From: Butyrivibrio hungatei NK4A153
GTDB lineage: Bacteria; Bacillota; Clostridia; Lachnospirales; Lachnospiraceae
DNA length: 40,497 nt
Assembly: GCF_000424465.1 (NCBI RefSeq)
Contig: NZ_AUJY01000023.1
Location: 1-40,497, forward strand
Reading direction: 5' to 3'
Position numbers and translations under genes: made by a program. Below the pieces are notes generated by a model. The model saw nothing but the letters and a program-made list of their open reading frames with translations. It ran no database searches and was not told the DNA's origin. Numbering within the stretch: the stretch's first letter is position 1; every line of letters begins with the position of its first letter. Shown in pieces: positions 475 through 27,172 of this stretch.

Positions 475-1509
475 ATGAAAAAAAGCATATCGGCTATCTT
501 GGGTGTTGCGTTGACGATTGTTGTCATAGTGGCCGGAGCGCTTGTTTTTCCTGTGGATTCAAAGGCATCTGAGATGACTTTTACAGGTAAGATTGACGAC
601 AGAACGACGGCTGAGAAGATGTATCTTTCTACCTCCGGCGGAACAGTAGAGATTAAGATCGATGATTCGACAGATAACAGTGAGGCAAAGTTTTTCTTCC
701 CCGGAACAAAGGTTACGGTTACTTGTTCTACGGGAAGCGACGGGTACTGGCACGCAACTTCAATCAAAAGCGAGGTAAAGCCCGGAAAAGCTGAAGTAGA
801 TTCTGCCAAGTCCACTACTGTAAAGGGTAAGATAGCAAAGGGAACAACAAGAGAGAAGATATTACTTAAGACCGGTGACGGAACAATGGAGATCAAGCTT
901 GATAACGAAACCGATTTAAGCGGAGTTAAGTGCATTTTGGTCGGTAGAGAAATCGAGGTAAACTGTGCAAGAGGATCTGATGCATATATGCATGCTTTGT
1001 CTGTAAAAGATAAGCAGACAAGCGCTTTATCCACTGCAAATGTTGAAAAGTATGGAACAGGAGTCAGAGGAACAATATCGGGGCAGACTACTTCAAGTAA
1101 GCTTGTACTCAAGACTTCCGAAGGCAGGATGGAGTTTGTGATCGACAGTAATACAGATGCTTCGGAAGGAAGAGTTGTTTTCCCCGGACAGAAGTATACG
1201 GTATATTTCTACAGAGGTAATGATTCCTGGAACCATGCTTCAAAGATTGTAAATGAGAGCGATACGTCATCACCTACAGTTTCTGTTGATGAAAGATCAA
1301 AAGCTACCGTAAACGGTAAGATCAAGAGTAAGACCAATGAGAGCACTCTTTTCCTTCAGACAAAAGACGGAACAATGGAGATAAGACTTGACGCAAACAC
1401 GGTATATAACAACTGTCTGTTCCTTATGGAAGATAAGAGAATAGTTGTTACCCTTGCAACCGGTTCTGACGGATATAACCACGCGGTGTCCATATCACCT
1501 GAGTGGTAA
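475..1509 (+). CDS. Secreted protein with four tandem beta-rich repeats
   Basis: 344 residues. Start ATG at 475 follows GAAAGGGG. The N-terminus (MKKS, then a hydrophobic stretch to about residue 28, then SKASE) is a signal peptide or single membrane anchor, so the rest should be outside the cell. The mature part consists of four repeats of about 65-70 residues (about 34-98, 113-178, 195-260, 277-342). Each follows the plan T-x-x-G-K-I ... TT-x-x-K-x-x-L-x-T ... GTMEIK-I/L-D-x-x-TD ... PG-x-x-V-x-V ... GSDGYxHA-x-S-I. The repeats look like small beta-barrel units of the OB-fold kind, but no family was recognised. The gene is flanked by the intron and a terminator and stands alone. A cell-surface or extracellular binding role is inferred from architecture only. 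Confidence 0.75.
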   Translation: MKKSISAILGVALTIVVIVAGALVFPVDSKASEMTFTGKIDDRTTAEKMYLSTSGGTVEIKIDDSTDNSEAKFFFPGTKVTVTCSTGSDGYWHATSIKSEVKPGKAEVDSAKSTTVKGKIAKGTTREKILLKTGDGTMEIKLDNETDLSGVKCILVGREIEVNCARGSDAYMHALSVKDKQTSALSTANVEKYGTGVRGTISGQTTSSKLVLKTSEGRMEFVIDSNTDASEGRVVFPGQKYTVYFYRGNDSWNHASKIVNESDTSSPTVSVDERSKATVNGKIKSKTNESTLFLQTKDGTMEIRLDANTVYNNCLFLMEDKRIVVTLATGSDGYNHAVSISPEW

Positions 1510-1546
1510 GATATCAGAAATACAGATATTTAAAAAATGGAATAAT

Positions 1547-1591
1547 AAAAGCCTTGATCATGGAAGATTCTTCACATAGTCAAGGCTTTTT
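1547..1591. terminator. Bidirectional terminator
   Basis: AAAAGCCTTGA pairs with TCAAGGCTTTTT across an 18-base or so loop. U-runs follow in both directions, so it can end both the repeat-protein gene on the plus strand and the cyclophilin gene on the minus strand. Confidence 0.85.
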
Positions 1592-1602
1592 CATTTAAGA
1601 TG

Positions 1603-2124
1603 TCATGCTTTTTCTGGTTCGGGATAATCTACTCCGAAAGTCTCTACTGTAACTGTCTTCATAACCTGAGGTGTTGTGGGACGGTCGTTCCAGTCTGTCT
1701 CAGTCTCGGCAATCTTGTTTACAACCTCGAGGCCTTCCGTAACCTTACCGAATGCAGCGTAGTCTCCGTCAAGGTGAGGAGATGTCTTGTGCATGATAAA
1801 GAACTGTGAGCCTGCTGAGTTGGGCATCATAGATCTTGCCATTGATAAAACACCCTCTGTATGCTTTAAGTCATTTTTAAATCCGTTTGATGAAAACTCA
1901 CCCTTTATTCCGTATCCGGGGCCGCCCATTCCGCTTCCTTCCGGGTCTCCGCCCTGAAGCATGAAGCCTTTTATTACGCGGTGGAAAATAAGTCCGTCGT
2001 AGAAATTCTTTTTGATAAGTGAAATAAAGTTATTTACTGTGTTGGGGGCAATCTCCGGATAGAGTTCAGCCTTTATGACATCACCGTTTTCCATTGTGAT
2101 TGTAACAATAGGATTCTGTGCCAT
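1603..2124 (-). CDS. Peptidyl-prolyl cis-trans isomerase, cyclophilin type
   Basis: 173 residues, starting MAQNPIVTITMENGDVIKAEL. The start at 2124 is chosen because AGGAGG (CCTCCT at 2131-2136 on the plus strand) sits at the right distance; the longer frame to 2208 adds 28 residues with no ribosome binding site and runs into the promoter. Cyclophilin hallmarks are present in order: FHRVIKGFMLQGGDP with the catalytic Arg, GPGY, LSMAR, NSAGSQFFI, and LDGDYAAFGKV. There is no signal peptide, so it acts in the cytoplasm, catalysing proline isomerisation during protein folding. Length is normal for bacterial PpiB-type enzymes. Monocistronic between a promoter at 2174-2201 and a shared terminator. 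Confidence 0.95.
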   Translation of the reverse strand: MAQNPIVTITMENGDVIKAELYPEIAPNTVNNFISLIKKNFYDGLIFHRVIKGFMLQGGDPEGSGMGGPGYGIKGEFSSNGFKNDLKHTEGVLSMARSMMPNSAGSQFFIMHKTSPHLDGDYAAFGKVTEGLEVVNKIAETETDWNDRPTTPQVMKTVTVETFGVDYPEPEKA

Positions 2125-2173
2125 TTTTTTCCTCCTGATAAATGTTATTGTGTTAGAAACAAACACTTCTGCA

Positions 2174-2201
2174 AGTATAACATAAAGAAAAGCAAAGTGA
2201 A
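2174..2201 (-). promoter_or_regulatory. Promoter of the cyclophilin gene
   Basis: On the minus strand TTCACT (plus 2196-2201) and TATACT (plus 2174-2179) are 16 bases apart, about 50 bases before the start codon. Confidence 0.6.
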
Positions 2202-2280
2202 AATACATAGAGAATGCAGATGAAATTTAGTGAATTTATGGCTATAATTATATTATAATCCGTTAAAAGGAGATGAGTGA

Positions 2281-3591
2281 GTGGAACTTAAATATTTGAT
2301 CACCGATGCGGAATTGTGGGGCGCATTGTTCTGTATACTGGCATCTGTATATTTGTTTTTGGGCCGCACGATCATAAAGAAAGAGTATAGGGCGCTTGCA
2401 ATACTGGAACTGACTGTAGGACTGGTTCTGGTGTTTGACGGTCTGGCCTGGTGCTACAGAGGCGTTCCGGGGGAATTTGCGTATGGAATGGTCACTGCGT
2501 CTAATTTTGTGACGTTCTTGATAAATCCCGTGATCCCTGTTTTTGTTTCAATCTATGTGATCTTTTCTGTTTATGAAGAAAAAAGTGATTTCACGATTTT
2601 CTACGCAGTAGCCGCTATCGCGATATGTGCTGAGATTATGCTTATGTTTTCGCAGGGGAGCGGATATATCTATAGAATTAATCCCGATACGAATCTATAT
2701 GAGAGAGGTCCCGGATTTCCTTTGTGGACTCTGGTCAATATGTCTGAAGCCATAATCTGCATCTTGTATCTTACGTATATGCGCAAGAAAGTGACAAAAC
2801 GCAGGTTTATTGCGGTGTTCTGCTTTATCTTTGTTCCGATTCTTGCGGCGGGGCTGCAGGTGTTTGTTTACGGCTATTCTCTTTATAATCTCGCCTGCCT
2901 TATGAGCGCGCTACTTATGCTTGCTCAGGCAATAGAAGATAATTCCAAGAATTTATTGAATCAGCGGGTGATGATAAGTACAAAAGAAAGCGAACTGTCC
3001 AATTTGAGAAATAAGATAGCGCTGTCTCAGATCAGGCCGCAGTTTATTTATACAACGCTTGATTATACAAAGGAGCTGTGCGAACGTGATCCCAAGAGGG
3101 CAAAAGATCTTGTCTCATGGCTGTCTGAATATATTAAAGGTAATAAGGGTTTTTCTGAAAAAGATGAGATGATCTTGTTTTCGGACGAGCTCGATCATAC
3201 GATGACTTTTCTTGAGATTGAAAAGGTTGTGCTTGAGGATGCTTTTGAAGTAGAGTATGACATACGGGAAAAAGACTTTGAGCTTCCTGCACTTACCCTG
3301 CAGCCCGTCGTTGAAAATGCTGTAAGGCACGGCATAAGAAAACTTGCGCCGGGAACCAAGGGTATCATAAAGATAAGCACTCATCGCGGAAACGGATATA
3401 TCAAGATTGAGGTAAAAGACAACGGAATAGGCTTTGATACAGATGAGATCACAGATAATCCCGATTATGAAGCAGAAATGCATGGCTTAAAGAATGTGGA
3501 AGAACGGCTTCGCATAATGGAAAACGCAGAGATGCATGTTAAGTCGTATCCGGGAAGAGGAACTACGGTGGAGATTATTATTCCGGTGTGA
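2281..3591 (+). CDS. LytS/YehU-type sensor histidine kinase lacking the phospho-acceptor histidine
   Basis: 436 residues, GTG start after AAAGGAG. Residues 1-220 form about seven membrane helices (visible around 12-28, 38-55, 75-97, 105-124, 149-166, 176-197, 200-217), a 7TM sensor. A coiled-coil-like stretch (221-248) leads to the His_kinase domain, where the family motif 'QIxPHFLFNTL' reads QIRPQFIYTTL: the phosphorylated His is Gln254 and the conserved Asn is Thr259. The ATPase domain keeps its N box (VVENAVRHG, 343-351), G1 box (DNGIGFD, 380-386) and a later glycine-rich end. ATP binding may therefore be intact while autophosphorylation on the usual His is impossible. No response regulator is adjacent; a 47-residue ORF follows at once. 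It could be a pseudokinase sensor or heterodimer partner. Confidence 0.88.
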   Translation: MELKYLITDAELWGALFCILASVYLFLGRTIIKKEYRALAILELTVGLVLVFDGLAWCYRGVPGEFAYGMVTASNFVTFLINPVIPVFVSIYVIFSVYEEKSDFTIFYAVAAIAICAEIMLMFSQGSGYIYRINPDTNLYERGPGFPLWTLVNMSEAIICILYLTYMRKKVTKRRFIAVFCFIFVPILAAGLQVFVYGYSLYNLACLMSALLMLAQAIEDNSKNLLNQRVMISTKESELSNLRNKIALSQIRPQFIYTTLDYTKELCERDPKRAKDLVSWLSEYIKGNKGFSEKDEMILFSDELDHTMTFLEIEKVVLEDAFEVEYDIREKDFELPALTLQPVVENAVRHGIRKLAPGTKGIIKISTHRGNGYIKIEVKDNGIGFDTDEITDNPDYEAEMHGLKNVEERLRIMENAEMHVKSYPGRGTTVEIIIPV

Positions 3592-4124: not shown

Positions 4125-4140
4125 GTAAATAAGCCGTGTC

Positions 4141-4158
4141 CCTCCAGCAGAAAGGAGG
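4141..4158 (+). promoter_or_regulatory. Hairpin hiding the toxin ribosome binding site
   Basis: CCTCC (4141-4145) is complementary to the GGAGG Shine-Dalgarno (4154-4158) across AGCAGAAA. In the Fst mRNA of the pAD1 par system a 5' helix likewise hides the ribosome binding site. Here the pairing is visible; the regulatory role is inferred. Confidence 0.6.
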
Positions 4159-4164
4159 TGAGGC

Positions 4165-4189
4165 GCCGTTGGAATATATAATTGCTTTT
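4165..4189. repeat. Direct repeat A, over the toxin start codon
   Basis: GCCGTTGG followed by AATATATAATTGCTTTT covers the TTG start. It recurs at 4333-4356 with a single base missing. A transcript of the second copy's minus strand would pair with the toxin mRNA at its start. Confidence 0.9.
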
Positions 4190-4252
4190 AGCATCTCTGT
4201 GTTGGCGAGTGTAGTTGCCTACTATATTTGCAAATGGTTAGACAGAGAGTAA
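4169..4252 (+). CDS. Fst/Ldr-like type I toxin, 27 residues
   Basis: TTG start 4169, with AAAGGAGGTG about nine bases upstream. The product, MEYIIAFSISVLASVVAYYI then CKWLDRE, is one transmembrane helix followed by a short charged tail with the 'K/R-W-L-D-R' ending common to Fst/Ldr-type peptide toxins, which damage the membrane when overproduced. What makes this more than a chance ORF is its setting: ribosome binding site in a hairpin, a 13-bp bidirectional terminator behind it, and a copy of its start region beyond the terminator with an outward-reading minus-strand promoter. That is the arrangement of the par locus of pAD1. The gene is too short for usual gene callers. Toxicity is inferred. 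Confidence 0.7.
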   Translation: MEYIIAFSISVLASVVAYYICKWLDRE

Positions 4253-4292
4253 TAACACGGTACTAACCTAAGAATAGCTCACTTTGACGAGC

Positions 4293-4332
4293 AAAACCCC
4301 CTAGGTGTTGCAGCACCTAGGGGGTTGTTTTT
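4293..4332. terminator. Bidirectional terminator shared by toxin mRNA and antisense RNA
   Basis: AACCCCCTAGGTG (4295-4307) pairs perfectly with CACCTAGGGGGTT (4314-4326) around a six-base loop. TTGTTTTT follows on the plus strand and TTTTGC on the minus strand, so both convergent transcripts would end here and share the stem-loop. Confidence 0.88.
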
Positions 4333-4356
4333 GCCGTTGAATATATAATTGCTTTT
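4333..4356. repeat. Direct repeat B, in the antisense gene
   Basis: Copy of 4165-4189 lacking one G: GCCGTTG then AATATATAATTGCTTTT. It encodes nothing here and lies between the antisense promoter and the shared terminator, as DRa/DRb do in par. Confidence 0.9.
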
Positions 4357-7177: not shown

Positions 7178-7249
7178 AGGGGAATCATACAATGGCTAGT
7201 ATGCCGGTCTCCAAAACCGCTCATGGGGGTTCGAATCCCTCTTCCCCTG
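7178..7249 (+). tRNA. tRNA-Trp (CCA)
   Basis: Full cloverleaf: acceptor AGGGGAA with TTCCCCT, D stem ATAC/GTAT, anticodon loop CTCCAAA with CCA at 7211-7213, T arm GGGGG-TTCGAAT-CCCTC, discriminator G. The first anticodon-stem pair (7204 with 7220) is a C-C mismatch. The 3' CCA is not encoded. Confidence 0.93.
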
Positions 7250-12688: not shown

Positions 12689-14485
12689 TTAGTTTTCTTT
12701 TTTGGCAGGAACCTGAATCTTGAAGTACTTAACATTGGCTGTAAGCTCTTCGGCAATCTGCTGGAGGTCTTTTGCCTGATTTACAACAGATTCCATATTG
12801 GTATCAAGTTCCATGAGAGATGCGCTTGTTTCCTGAGTGGAAGCGGCGTTCTCTTCGGAGATACTTGAAAGGGACTCGATGGAGTTAAGGATGTTCTCCT
12901 TATCGGAGTTCATTGTCTCTACGAGAGTAGCAATCTGCTTGTTTCCTTCCTCGGTTTCCTGAAGGAGTCTTAGCATTTCATCGAAGGAAATACTCATCTC
13001 TTCAAGGGCTGTAGCTTCATTTGTTGTAGCGGCCTTGATGCTCTCTGTAAGTTCTTTGTTAGTGTTTGAGTAGTCGGTGATTGTTGAGAGCATGTTGGTG
13101 ATCTCGCCTGCAAGAGCGTTTGTATCGCCTGCAAGGTTCTTGATGTTATCGGCAACGACTGCAAATCCTTTTCCTGCTTCGCCGGCTCTTGCGGCCTCAA
13201 TTGAAGCATTGAGCGCAAGGAGGTTTGTCTGGCTTGCGATTGAAATGATGGATTCTGCGGCTGTCGAGATCTGTTCAACTACATTTGCGGTCTCGTTAAC
13301 TGACTCTGCAACACGTCCGGCCATTTCGTCTGTCTTCTGGTCCTGAATCTTGATCTGCTCAAGCTGTTCTTTTACTTTGACAGATTCATTGTAAACAAGG
13401 CGGCCTTTTTCAAGGTTGGAGTTTGCTGAATCAAGCACGCTGTCAACAGAAGAGCCGATGTTGATCGTGATGGTAGAAGTGCTCTGAACATCTTCAGCCA
13501 TAGCTGTTGCTCCCGATGCAAGATCGTTTACTGCGGAGCTGATATCGGTTGTGGTTTTCTGCGAGCTTGTGATTGAATCTTTTGCAATCTCAGCTTTGCT
13601 GTTTACGCTATCGGCATGAGTAATGACTTTAAGGAGTGCGTGTCTGAGTTCGTGTCTCATTCCCTCAAGAGAAGCAGCGATATTATTAAAGTCTTTTATA
13701 ATGCTGTTGGGTCTTATCTTGGTAACAAAGTCTCCCGTAGCAACGTTCTTAACCGCAAGAGAGATACTCTTAAGGTTGTGTACGATGTTAAGGAGCATGA
13801 TGATAGTAAAGATAAAGAGTGCAGCTGCGATCGCGCCGAATATTGTTGAGCTTACGATGATACTTCTGTTTATTGAAGCGTTGTTCATCTCTTTCTCATC
13901 ATTGGCCCATTTCTCGGCAATCTGAGTCATCTCTGAGAGATAACCTCTGGCAATCGCGTAGTCATCCGTGAGCTTCTTGATCTCGCCGGATCCTGCATTG
14001 TACTCATCTGAGCCGGATCCGATTGTCTGTTTGTAATCTTCCTGCCATTCTGCGAGAGCGGCAACAAATGAATCATGAGTTGCTGTAAAAGTTGCTCCGG
14101 AATCTGAAGTTATAGTGTTATACAAATATGAATTGGTCTGGGCGAGCCCGTTTGCGTTTTCAACTCTGCTTGATGTCTGGTCGATGCAATTCTGAGTGTT
14201 TTCCATATATCCTGTAAGGACACTCATATTTGCATACTTAAATTCTGAAAGGTAGCGACTGATTGAAAGCATTGCCTCGTTCAAGTCTTTGTCTGCATTT
14301 ACAAGCTCAAAATTTATTGTATATAGCATGTCATAATAAATCTTCTCGTCGGTCTTCTCAATGTTCTTCATCTGCACATTACTGAAAATGATGCTACCGA
14401 TCAACGCTATTATAAGCGGGATAGTGACCATTAACAGCACAGCAGCCATGCTGGCGTGGAACTTAGGTGTTCGTTTTTCCTTCAT
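12689..14485 (-). CDS. Methyl-accepting chemotaxis protein
   Basis: 598 residues; GGAGGTAA precedes the ATG at 14485. Membrane helix 1 at about 12-35, extracellular helical sensor about 36-205, helix 2 about 207-233, HAMP about 234-288, then the long signalling coiled coil. The conserved tip that contacts CheA and CheW is intact ([20 protein letters not shown], about 414-433, then [18 protein letters not shown]). Ala/Glu/Gln-rich segments at either side are the likely methylation zones. The ligand cannot be predicted; the sensor looks like a four-helix bundle. Ends AKKEN without a CheR-binding pentapeptide. Together with the rest of the genome this implies a motile or chemotactic organism. 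It follows the GTPase-nuclease gene by 75 bases. Confidence 0.95.
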
Positions 14486-14560: not shown

Positions 14561-17275
14561 CTAATCTTTATGCTTTTTTTCCAAAATCTTATCCAGTATA
14601 GATCGCCGTGTCACCTCAATTTCTTCCCAGAATTCCGATGCAGACATCCTTATCGCACCGGCACTGAATACTATGACTTGCTCGATTGCGTCTGAAGTGG
14701 CAACAGTCACCCTGTATTTCTTACTGAATTCGTGAGCAGCCTTTTCAATGTACTGATCGGCTGTCTCAGCTTCTTTTGTGTATATCACTGTAAGGTTATT
14801 TAGTTTTTCAATGTGCTCTTTTCCGCCGGGTACCTTATAGGCGTCAAATATAAGCAGGACTTCTTCACGCCTGTATCCTTGGAAGTTGGACAGCGTATCT
14901 ATGAGTGAGTCTCTCGCGGCCTTGAGATCGTGTTTGGCAAGATCTTTTAATTCCTTTGATGCGTGGATCACGTTGTAGCCATCGACCAGAAGATAGTGCT
15001 TTGATGCTTCGATTGCTGCTTTTTCTGCTGCGGTGGCGTTTCTGTGCTTATCGCGTTTTTCTTGTTCGATATCAAGGTCTCTGTTTTTTTCGGCCGCAAT
15101 GCTGTCTGCTGAAGCAAGTACGGATCGGTCCTCAGTGTAGCGAGGCTTTATGGTTCCGTAGGTTCTTTCAAATATGGACTTTAGTTCGTCTTCGGCGGCG
15201 AAATAGTCTTTTTGTTTTTCTGCAAAAGAGCGTGTATCTTCAGCGCTTCTGCGCGTATTTATCTTCTTTAGGGCTTCGAGGTCGAGGCCGTTTGTAAGAT
15301 CTGTTACTGCATCGCTTTTTGCTAAATCGGGCTTTCTTGCGTCCAGATGCATATGATCCGGAACTTCATCCCATGAGATCAAGGTTGCCGCACCGTGCAT
15401 ACAAAATACGGAAGAAGAGGGATTGTCCGGATCAAGGTCGGGATCGTAACCTGATGAAGCAATAACTTCTTCTGCGTTGTGGCAAGGGCCGTAGCCGCTG
15501 AGCGTGGTGTAGATATGGCCTTCGCCTTTGGTATATGCGGATAGTTCCTGCGCGTAATTACCGAGACATGCTGCGGGGACAGTTCCCGTAAGAATTGATT
15601 TGCCGCCTTCAATATCGGGCAGTCCCACGGTTCCGTTCATCATTTGTATGTCCGTGAGAGCCCTTCCTACAGTTTCTTGCGGAAGTTCCATTCTGTAATC
15701 GAGTATCGGTTCTAAAAGAACTGAATCTGCCTGCATCAGTCCCTGCCTTATTGCGCGATAGGTGGCCTGCCTGAAATCACCGCCCTCTGTGTGCTTTTCG
15801 TGAGCCTTTCCTGCTATGAGCGTGATTTTCATGTCGGTTATCTCAGAGCCTGTAAGGACTCCGCGATGCTTCTTTTCACCAAGGTGCGTAAGGACCAGCC
15901 TCTGCCAGTTAAGTGCAAGGTCATCGGTCGGACAGTCTGACGAAAAGACAAGACCGCTTCCCGGTTCTCCGGGTTCAAGGAGAAGATGCACTTCGGCGTA
16001 GTGGCGGAGCGGTTCAAAATGACCGACGCCTTCAACGGTATTTGCTATCGTTTCCTTATATACGGTGTGTCCGGGGCCAAACTCCGCGTCGATGTTAAAT
16101 CGGGTCTTTAGCATGTGACGAAGGATCTCTTTTTGCACTTCACCCATTATCTGAATCTCAATCTGGCCGGTTTCTTCAAGAGAAGTCACCTGAAGCATAG
16201 GTTCTTCCTCTTCGAGAACTTTAAGCTGCTTAAAGACGGGAACGGGATTCACATCTTCGGGAAGAAGGAGAGTGCAGGATAAAATGGGTTGCAGGATTTC
16301 TGAGACATTACTGCCTTCCAAAATGCCGAGTCCTTCGCCGGCTCTTGTCCCTGTAAGGCCTGTTACGACGCATATCATTCCGGCATAGGCACTTCTTGCA
16401 GGCTCGAACTTTTCGCCCGAATAAAGTCGTATCTGATCGACTTTTTCGCCGCGAATACTGTCTCTGACGTTCAGGACGCCGCTTGTGATCTTGATGTGAG
16501 TCAAACGGTTTCCTGAATTATCTCTGCTTATCTTATATATCCTGGCTCCGAATTCTTTTGGCGTACCGTCAGGGTTTTCAGCTTCGCAGGTCATACTCGG
16601 AGCTGCCTTGCAGATAAGGTCAAGGAGCTGTTGTACGCCGTCCGCTTTAAGGGCTGAGCCAAAGAGAATCGGGAAGCACTTCCTTTTATGAATGAGATTG
16701 CTAATGTTTTCCTGAGTTATCTTTTTACCATCAAGGAAACTTGATAAAAGCTCTTCGTCACACATGGCGAGTTCTTCAAAGAATTCATCTTCAGGCACAC
16801 TCTCATCAAAAGAGATGCATGAGGATGAAAGTGTTTCCCTGATCTCAGATGTCACCGCACCTACATCGGTTCCGGGTTGGTCCATTTTGTTTACGAAGAT
16901 CACAGTCGGGACACGGTAATGCTCAAGGAGCTTAAAAAGCATCCTGGCCTGTGAAGTTACGCCGTCCGGTGCGCTTATTATGAGCGTAGCAATGTCAAGA
17001 ACCTGAAGAGTTCTTTCCATTTCCGGAGAAAAATCTGCGTGTCCCGGAGTGTCAAGCAGATTAAAGCGTATGTCGTTGTAATCAAAAATGGCTTGTTTGG
17101 AAAAGATTGTAATTCCGCGTGATCTTTCGAGTTCGTATGTATCAAGAAAAGTATCTTTATGATCGACTCTTCCCGGCTTTTTAATACGGCCGGCAAGATA
17201 CAAGAGACTCTCAGAAAGGGTAGTCTTACCCGCGTCAACATGGGCAAGTATGCCAAGGGTCACATTTCTTTTCAT
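14561..17275 (-). CDS. TetM/EF-G-like translational GTPase fused to a C-terminal NYN (YacP/Rae1-like) nuclease domain
   Basis: 904 residues; AAGGATG precedes the ATG at 17275. G domain: AHVDAGKTT (11-19), RGITI (53-57), DTPGHADF (75-82), NKMD (129-132), GSA (206-208). Domains II to V follow, of the ribosomal-protection type, to about 645. A charged linker (about 665-755, likely coiled coil) leads to residues 759-890, an NYN/YacP domain with YLLVDGYNVIHA (Asp765), LLIFDAYKV (Asp811), ETADQYIEK (Asp840) and VATSDAIEQ (Asp862), the acidic set expected for a PIN-like nuclease. Rae1 (YacP) of Bacillus subtilis cuts mRNA in the ribosomal A site, and TetM-type GTPases bind beside that site. A factor that enters stalled ribosomes and cuts the mRNA is therefore a reasonable inference. 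True TetM proteins are about 640 residues and lack the tail, so tetracycline resistance should not be assumed. Confidence 0.9.
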   Translation of the reverse strand: MKRNVTLGILAHVDAGKTTLSESLLYLAGRIKKPGRVDHKDTFLDTYELERSRGITIFSKQAIFDYNDIRFNLLDTPGHADFSPEMERTLQVLDIATLIISAPDGVTSQARMLFKLLEHYRVPTVIFVNKMDQPGTDVGAVTSEIRETLSSSCISFDESVPEDEFFEELAMCDEELLSSFLDGKKITQENISNLIHKRKCFPILFGSALKADGVQQLLDLICKAAPSMTCEAENPDGTPKEFGARIYKISRDNSGNRLTHIKITSGVLNVRDSIRGEKVDQIRLYSGEKFEPARSAYAGMICVVTGLTGTRAGEGLGILEGSNVSEILQPILSCTLLLPEDVNPVPVFKQLKVLEEEEPMLQVTSLEETGQIEIQIMGEVQKEILRHMLKTRFNIDAEFGPGHTVYKETIANTVEGVGHFEPLRHYAEVHLLLEPGEPGSGLVFSSDCPTDDLALNWQRLVLTHLGEKKHRGVLTGSEITDMKITLIAGKAHEKHTEGGDFRQATYRAIRQGLMQADSVLLEPILDYRMELPQETVGRALTDIQMMNGTVGLPDIEGGKSILTGTVPAACLGNYAQELSAYTKGEGHIYTTLSGYGPCHNAEEVIASSGYDPDLDPDNPSSSVFCMHGAATLISWDEVPDHMHLDARKPDLAKSDAVTDLTNGLDLEALKKINTRRSAEDTRSFAEKQKDYFAAEDELKSIFERTYGTIKPRYTEDRSVLASADSIAAEKNRDLDIEQEKRDKHRNATAAEKAAIEASKHYLLVDGYNVIHASKELKDLAKHDLKAARDSLIDTLSNFQGYRREEVLLIFDAYKVPGGKEHIEKLNNLTVIYTKEAETADQYIEKAAHEFSKKYRVTVATSDAIEQVIVFSAGAIRMSASEFWEEIEVTRRSILDKILEKKHKD

Positions 17276-27099: not shown

Positions 27100-27172
27100 G
27101 CTGTTGTAGCACAGTCGGTAGTGCGTCGCATTGGTAGTGCGGAGGTCACGGGTTCGATTCCCGTCAGCAGCT
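27100..27172 (+). tRNA. tRNA-Thr (GGT)
   Basis: Cloverleaf with acceptor GCTGTTG and CAGCAGC, D loop containing GTCGGTA, anticodon stem TCGCA/TGCGG, loop TTGGTAG with GGT at 27133-27135, T arm with GGTTCGATTCC, discriminator T. The 3' CCA is not encoded. Confidence 0.93.

Follow-up and report, generated by a model that had tools for sequence, protein, structure and literature searches.

The DNA of Butyrivibrio hungatei NK4A153 analyzed here (the window, 40,497 nucleotides (nt), positions 1-40,497 of contig NZ_AUJY01000023.1) carries on its reverse strand a gene in which a TetM/EF-G-type GTPase is joined through a charged tether to a Rae1-type NYN nuclease. On balance, and judging from sequence, we predict that this fusion is the Rae1 of most of its family (Lachnospiraceae), that is, an mRNA endonuclease that would be brought to ribosomes by its own GTPase; it is a core chromosomal gene, usually single-copy, rather than an acquired resistance gene. 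The architecture is already known: it has been in print since 2015, when a YacP-like NYN RNase domain was reported as an acquisition of the Tet proteins of ten clostridial species and RNase-based antibiotic resistance was proposed (Atkinson 2015, PMC4342817). The fusion described here is of that kind and has the same architecture; what is new, compared with the ten species and the resistance idea of that study, is its status as a core gene in place of rae1, the invariant acidic residues, and the HxKHTEGGDFR loop. A literature search whose scope left out most subscription papers found no later treatment of the GTPase-NYN fusion.

The fusion gene and its domains

The gene and its parts are as follows (residue numbers are those of the encoded protein):

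14561..17275 (-): complete fusion gene, 904 amino acids (aa), TetM/EF-G-type GTPase, tether and Rae1-type NYN nuclease (open reading frame (ORF) with ATG start)
16598..17269 (-): G domain, residues 3-226, with motifs G1-G5 (Pfam GTP_EFTU, E 1.2e-52)
16331..16549 (-): domain II, residues 243-315 (Pfam EF-G_D2)
16076..16288 (-): domain III, residues 330-400 (Pfam EFG_III)
15728..16066 (-): domain IV, residues 404-516 (Pfam EFG_IV)
15989..16027 (-): loop I region of domain IV, residues 417-429, conserved VGHFEPLRHYAEV (alignment of fused, sister, Tet, and EF-G proteins)
15770..15814 (-): loop III region of domain IV, residues 488-502, HxKHTEGGDFR versus SPVSTPADFR in TetM (alignment)
15476..15721 (-): domain V, residues 519-600 (Pfam EFG_C)
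15341..15475 (-): C-terminal extension, residues 601-645, at the position of TetM's own C terminus
14996..15340 (-): charged tether, residues 646-760, 41% D/E/K/R (composition; block pLDDT about 37-67)
14570..14992 (-): NYN_YacP (Rae1-type) nuclease domain, residues 762-902 (Pfam PF05991, E 2.8e-47)
14981..14983 (-): Asp765, conserved acidic residue (100/100 fused and 51/51 stand-alone rows)
14843..14845 (-): Asp811, conserved acidic residue (same counts, 100/100 and 51/51)
14756..14758 (-): Asp840, conserved acidic residue (100/100 and 51/51)
14690..14692 (-): Asp862, conserved acidic residue (100/100 and 51/51)

The GTPase-NYN fusion reported in a preliminary description of this DNA is real, as judged from the 904-aa ORF (with the sequence AAGGATG upstream of its ATG start), Pfam matches to every domain, and the recurrence of the architecture in most genera of the family. 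The GTPase portion (residues 1-645) is intact, and the C-terminal domain matches the NYN_YacP profile with 161.2 bits against the Pfam PF05991 cut-off of 24.6; this domain had been placed at 14606-15001, and its presence stands while its coordinates become 14570-14992. The tether, which is probably flexible, measures 61-198 residues in fused relatives (median 75).

Distribution

Among the 7982 homologues found, all 120 that are listed carry the NYN_YacP domain; the closest named relatives among them are from Butyrivibrio, and other named carriers of the fusion include Intestinimonas butyriciproducens and Anaerovorax odorimutans. In a family sample of one genome per genus (n = 200), PF05991 is present in 180 genomes: 162 have an intact fusion (open frame of at least 780 aa), 7 a broken or contig-cut one (G140, G006, G135, G151, G098, G095, and G042, judged by frame length or place), and 11 a stand-alone gene, the other 20 having none. 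Intact or broken, the fusion is found in 169 of the 200 genera. Two PF05991 matches occur in 5 of the 180 genomes (G039, G076, G130, G154, and G173), most of which look like one contig-cut gene or a duplicate. Of 61 genomes from the window's genus, 53 carry the fusion (33 of the 35 good ones), every frame being 619-991 aa long. One of the broken cases (L034, from G042; 720-1292 and 1270-3405 (-)) has separate frames for GTPase and NYN that overlap by 23 nt, i.e., a split or frameshifted fusion.

Plasmid records matching the fusion number 1376, and in just 2 of these does one place cover at least 80% of it. Among the plasmid records listed, such coverage is seen in Agathobacter rectalis, where the gene is named TetM/TetW/TetO/TetS-type and is adjoined by a BrnT-type toxin-antitoxin pair; a Monoglobus record, which came from the NYN query, has a recombinase 1 kb from the fusion. 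Neighbors in both the Agathobacter and the Monoglobus records are mixed and largely chromosome-like. Two phage records cover the fusion. In the record labelled Bacteriophage sp. (MT835514.1, our L105), the fusion is accompanied by FeoB, MraW, a Glu/Gln-tRNA synthetase family protein, and RelA/SpoT, and from this gene content the sequence looks like bacterial chromosome. We reject acquired resistance on mobile DNA in view of the plasmid coverage (2/1376), the largely chromosome-like neighbors, and the bacterial appearance of the phage record L105.

Replacement of stand-alone rae1

The window's genome has a single PF05991 match, the fusion itself. In a class sample (n = 138) we counted 50 fused genes (frame of at least 700 aa) and 40 of stand-alone size (one being the split fusion of G250), and in a phylum sample (n = 139) 9 fused and 73 stand-alone genes, with no genome in either sample having both; the samples are not phylogenetically independent and overlap in a few genomes, and sub-cut-off matches in G334 and G370 are uncounted. 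The annotated loci of B. subtilis and C. difficile have the order rlmB-rae1-sigH. An intact rae1 lies beside rlmB in none of 21 fused genomes, 18 of which have sigH downstream in the fetched stretch, and in the window's genome rlmB is directly followed by sigH, whose start is 3 nt past the rlmB stop. Among 18 stand-alone genomes, rae1 is found at rlmB and/or sigH in 17 (the exception is G059). No trace of rae1 was detected in 20 of the 21 fused loci (E ≤ 0.01).

A single genus (code g228) contains G258, with an intact rlmB-rae1-sigH locus and no fusion, G334, with the fusion and no rae1 trace, and G224, with the fusion and a decayed rae1 still lying between rlmB and sigH (L116, 2218-2843; two frames, with no open stretch beyond 49 codons and 15-20 stops per frame). 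Decay of rae1 after gain of the fusion is what would be expected if the fusion performs rae1's job. The exchange probably happened several times, given that families f1, f22, f23, and f27 each contain both states. This mutual replacement of the fused and the stand-alone gene supports Rae1 as the functional comparison, which the preliminary description had already made.

The nuclease domain

Asp765, Asp811, Asp840, and Asp862, the residues singled out in the preliminary description, are present and invariant in all 151 NYN rows (100 fused and 51 stand-alone, corresponding to 98 and 50, or 148, distinct sequences), and Asn768 is present in 100/100 fused rows. Rows shorter than 110 residues and second rows of the same locus were excluded, and near-repeats identical over the first 120 residues were kept (three fused pairs and one stand-alone pair, L029/L134, both from G024). 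Because all matches listed by a structure search with the full-length model were to chains of EF-G-type and related GTPases, over residues 1-641, the NYN domain was folded and searched separately; alone, its model shows the Rae1 fold. Rae1/YacP of B. subtilis (5mq8, 5mq9) is a stand-alone protein of 170 aa encoded beside rlmB and sigH, whereas the nuclease of the fusion is joined to a GTPase, relocated in the genome, and, in this protein, tail-less: the domain stops at about Rae1 residue 146, short of the C-terminal tail of stand-alone Rae1. Both this tail and the adjacency to rlmB and sigH are usual traits of the NYN_YacP family, not defining ones.

The GTPase half

In an alignment of 70 full-length fused proteins (the truncated L067 was left out), conservation reaches 69-70 of the 70 for the residues checked in G1-G4, and 65 and 69 for the two residues of G5, in accordance with the five G motifs originally described. 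Like TetM, TetO, and OtrA, the fusion has a five-domain EF-G-like GTPase with a C-terminal extension, and among solved structures TetO and TetM are nearest to it in sequence; it differs from them in having no drug-site proline loop, in forming a separate clade, in being rarely found on plasmids, and in the added nuclease. TetM Pro509 sits in the drug site (PMC8161019), and the P-V-S motif is kept by Tet(O), Tet(M), and a Streptomyces OtrA. In the alignment used for loops I and III, Lys494 of the fusion falls in the column of Pro509, which holds a Lys in 67 of the 70 fused proteins, inside the HxKHTEGGDFR loop.

The fusion scores below cut-off against the NCBIfam families tet_protect (439.3 versus 775), Otr(A) (319 versus 900), and EF-G (TIGR00484; 292.3 versus 659.4). 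The Streptomyces OtrA, used as a control, reached 902.5 for Otr(A) (cut-off 900) but 713.9 for tet_protect (cut-off 775). The genome of the fusion has EF-G-like matches at other places (G000:C11, frame 709, and C4, frame 697). With the tet_protect score below cut-off and the proline loop replaced, the label "tetracycline resistance" is probably wrong for the fusion, as the preliminary description had suspected.

Fused and sister GTPases group together in the FastTree phylogeny (support 0.99), with 15 Tet-like proteins standing apart (0.92). Unfused sisters (L037-L042, L209, L212, and L214; 43-46% identity) come from Clostridia and from metagenome-assembled genomes (MAGs) labelled Bifidobacterium and Collinsella. 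They carry no NYN domain, loop III is the same or nearly the same in the 8 aligned, loop I is similar in the 4 compared, and their genomes include ones both with and without NYN.

Proposed function and alternative explanations

If the fusion serves as Rae1 in most of this family, its nuclease would keep Rae1's job of cleaving mRNA on ribosomes engaged in translation, the truncated message then passing to tmRNA rescue. Domain IV of TetM and EF-G enters the ribosomal A site. In TetM, domain IV occupies this site (PMC8161019), and for Rae1, described as an endonuclease that acts on mRNA in the A site, entry into stalled ribosomes has been proposed (PMC10100781, PMC6613710, PMC12320835). Because domain IV and Rae1 are thus both expected in one A site, we propose a hand-off: the GTP form would sample ribosomes with an empty A site, domain IV would probe the decoding center via the conserved HxKHTEGGDFR loop, GTP hydrolysis would pull domain IV out again, and the NYN domain, leashed at the point where the TetM chain ends, would move into the vacated A site and cut the exposed codon. 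The order of events is the weakest part of this proposal. More tentatively, and with more doubt than confidence, we suggest that the fusion is a GTP-gated ribosome nuclease that swaps domain IV for a tethered Rae1, and that many Clostridia switched to it from free Rae1, the GTPase doing the docking of the tail. Were the fusion indeed the Rae1 of these bacteria, a core gene sometimes listed as tetracycline resistance would turn out to be an mRNA quality-control factor, resistance-gene counts resting on that label would be inflated, and Rae1's choice of ribosomes would become testable, with GTPase and nuclease halves that can be switched off separately.

Several observations weigh against the assignment of the fusion as Rae1. 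Domain IV and the nuclease would compete for one A site, since on steric grounds both are unlikely to dock there at once. Arg876 is fixed in 51/51 stand-alone but 58/100 fused NYN rows, and the C-terminal tail, 44-52 residues long in 51/51 stand-alone rows, is at most 27 residues in 28 of the 70 fused proteins, this one included; the substrate or docking of the fused nuclease may therefore differ from that of Rae1. In B. subtilis, the tail change R166P was recovered among mutations with loss-of-function behavior (PMC6613710). The docking role of the tail may have been taken over by the GTPase, and a relaxed or altered function would give the same pattern. On the free tree, the fused NYN domains fall into more than one clade (2 changes needed), and a single clade is not rejected (p-AU 0.395; IQ-TREE run with 40 of the 100 fused rows). 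Rae1 of B. subtilis is a separate protein, and a stand-alone NYN without this GTPase is found in 4 of the 11 family genomes with a separate NYN (G007, G016, G020, and G128). Conversely, two NYN-less GTPases (L209 and L212, from the MAGs labelled Bifidobacterium and Collinsella, 2 of the 8 sister rows) are nested in the fused clade with a branch support of 0.97 (FastTree), from which it follows that the GTPase can persist without the nuclease. The second NYN match of G039, a fragment at the end of a contig, could be a real separate copy, and 20 of the 200 family genomes live without nuclease and without GTPase.

Some of these points would suit halves that work independently, with the GTPase as a translation factor that has a task of its own (e.g., to move or recycle special ribosomes) and a nuclease attached for co-expression. 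The unfused sisters with the same loop III, with and without NYN in the genome, the two NYN-less proteins inside the fused clade, the stand-alone NYN genes without GTPase, and the long and variable tether all fit this explanation; we nevertheless consider it unlikely, as in the class sample the fused-type GTPase (at least 47% identity) almost never occurs without NYN (48 of 50 genomes fused, G250 with a split fusion, and G329, a 65% complete genome, with the gene cut by a contig end), and the GTPase is absent together with NYN in 20/20 NYN-less family genomes. We hold it to be improbable that the fusion is a tetracycline-type ribosome protection protein whose GTPase dislodges the drug while the RNase acts on RNA of the drugged ribosome, as proposed by Atkinson (PMC4342817) and as one of the NCBI names of the protein implies. 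The kinship with TetO and TetM in sequence, the TetM-like C-terminal extension, and the names given to 4 of the 19 named homologues among those listed (TetM/TetW/TetO/TetS, the others being translation-factor, GTP-binding, or NYN proteins) and likewise to the Agathobacter gene speak for it, but the Pro509 loop common to TetM, Tet(O), and OtrA is absent, the tet_protect score is far from its cut-off, and the gene is core and chromosomal. Moreover, a separate Tet-like gene (<40% identity) is also present in 4 of the 50 fused class-sample genomes, one of them in the window's genus (one of the four genes, at 27% identity, is perhaps not a Tet).

Lower still we rate the possibility that the fused nuclease cuts rRNA or tRNA, in maturation or in decay of stalled or damaged ribosomes, and not mRNA. 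Such substrates were suggested for the NYN domain, with reference to Anantharaman and Aravind (PMC4342817), and the Arg876 divergence and shortened tail leave room for another substrate; against this, the reported substrate of Rae1, whose gene is being replaced, is mRNA, cut in the A site (PMC6613710, PMC12320835).

Upstream region and neighboring genes

The 161-nt gap upstream of the fusion gene contains neither a terminator-like site nor a convincing leader peptide, which leaves the earlier suggestion of induction by antibiotics unsupported and led us to reject a TetM-like attenuation leader; a promoter scan gave a chance-level result (5 found versus a mean of 4.8 in shuffles). Downstream lies, as previously noted, a chemoreceptor gene (MCPsignal, 12689-14485). 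Neighbors of the fusion gene are not conserved, the commonest neighbor cluster being present in 5 of 31 loci, and the gene context is therefore uninformative on function, in line with the neutral reading given to it before. Elsewhere in the window, Rfam searches gave a borderline match to the Streptococcus sRNA SpF66 (4130-4342 (+), 42.4 bits versus a cut-off of 42) and two tRNA genes, at 7178-7249 (+) and 27100-27172 (+).
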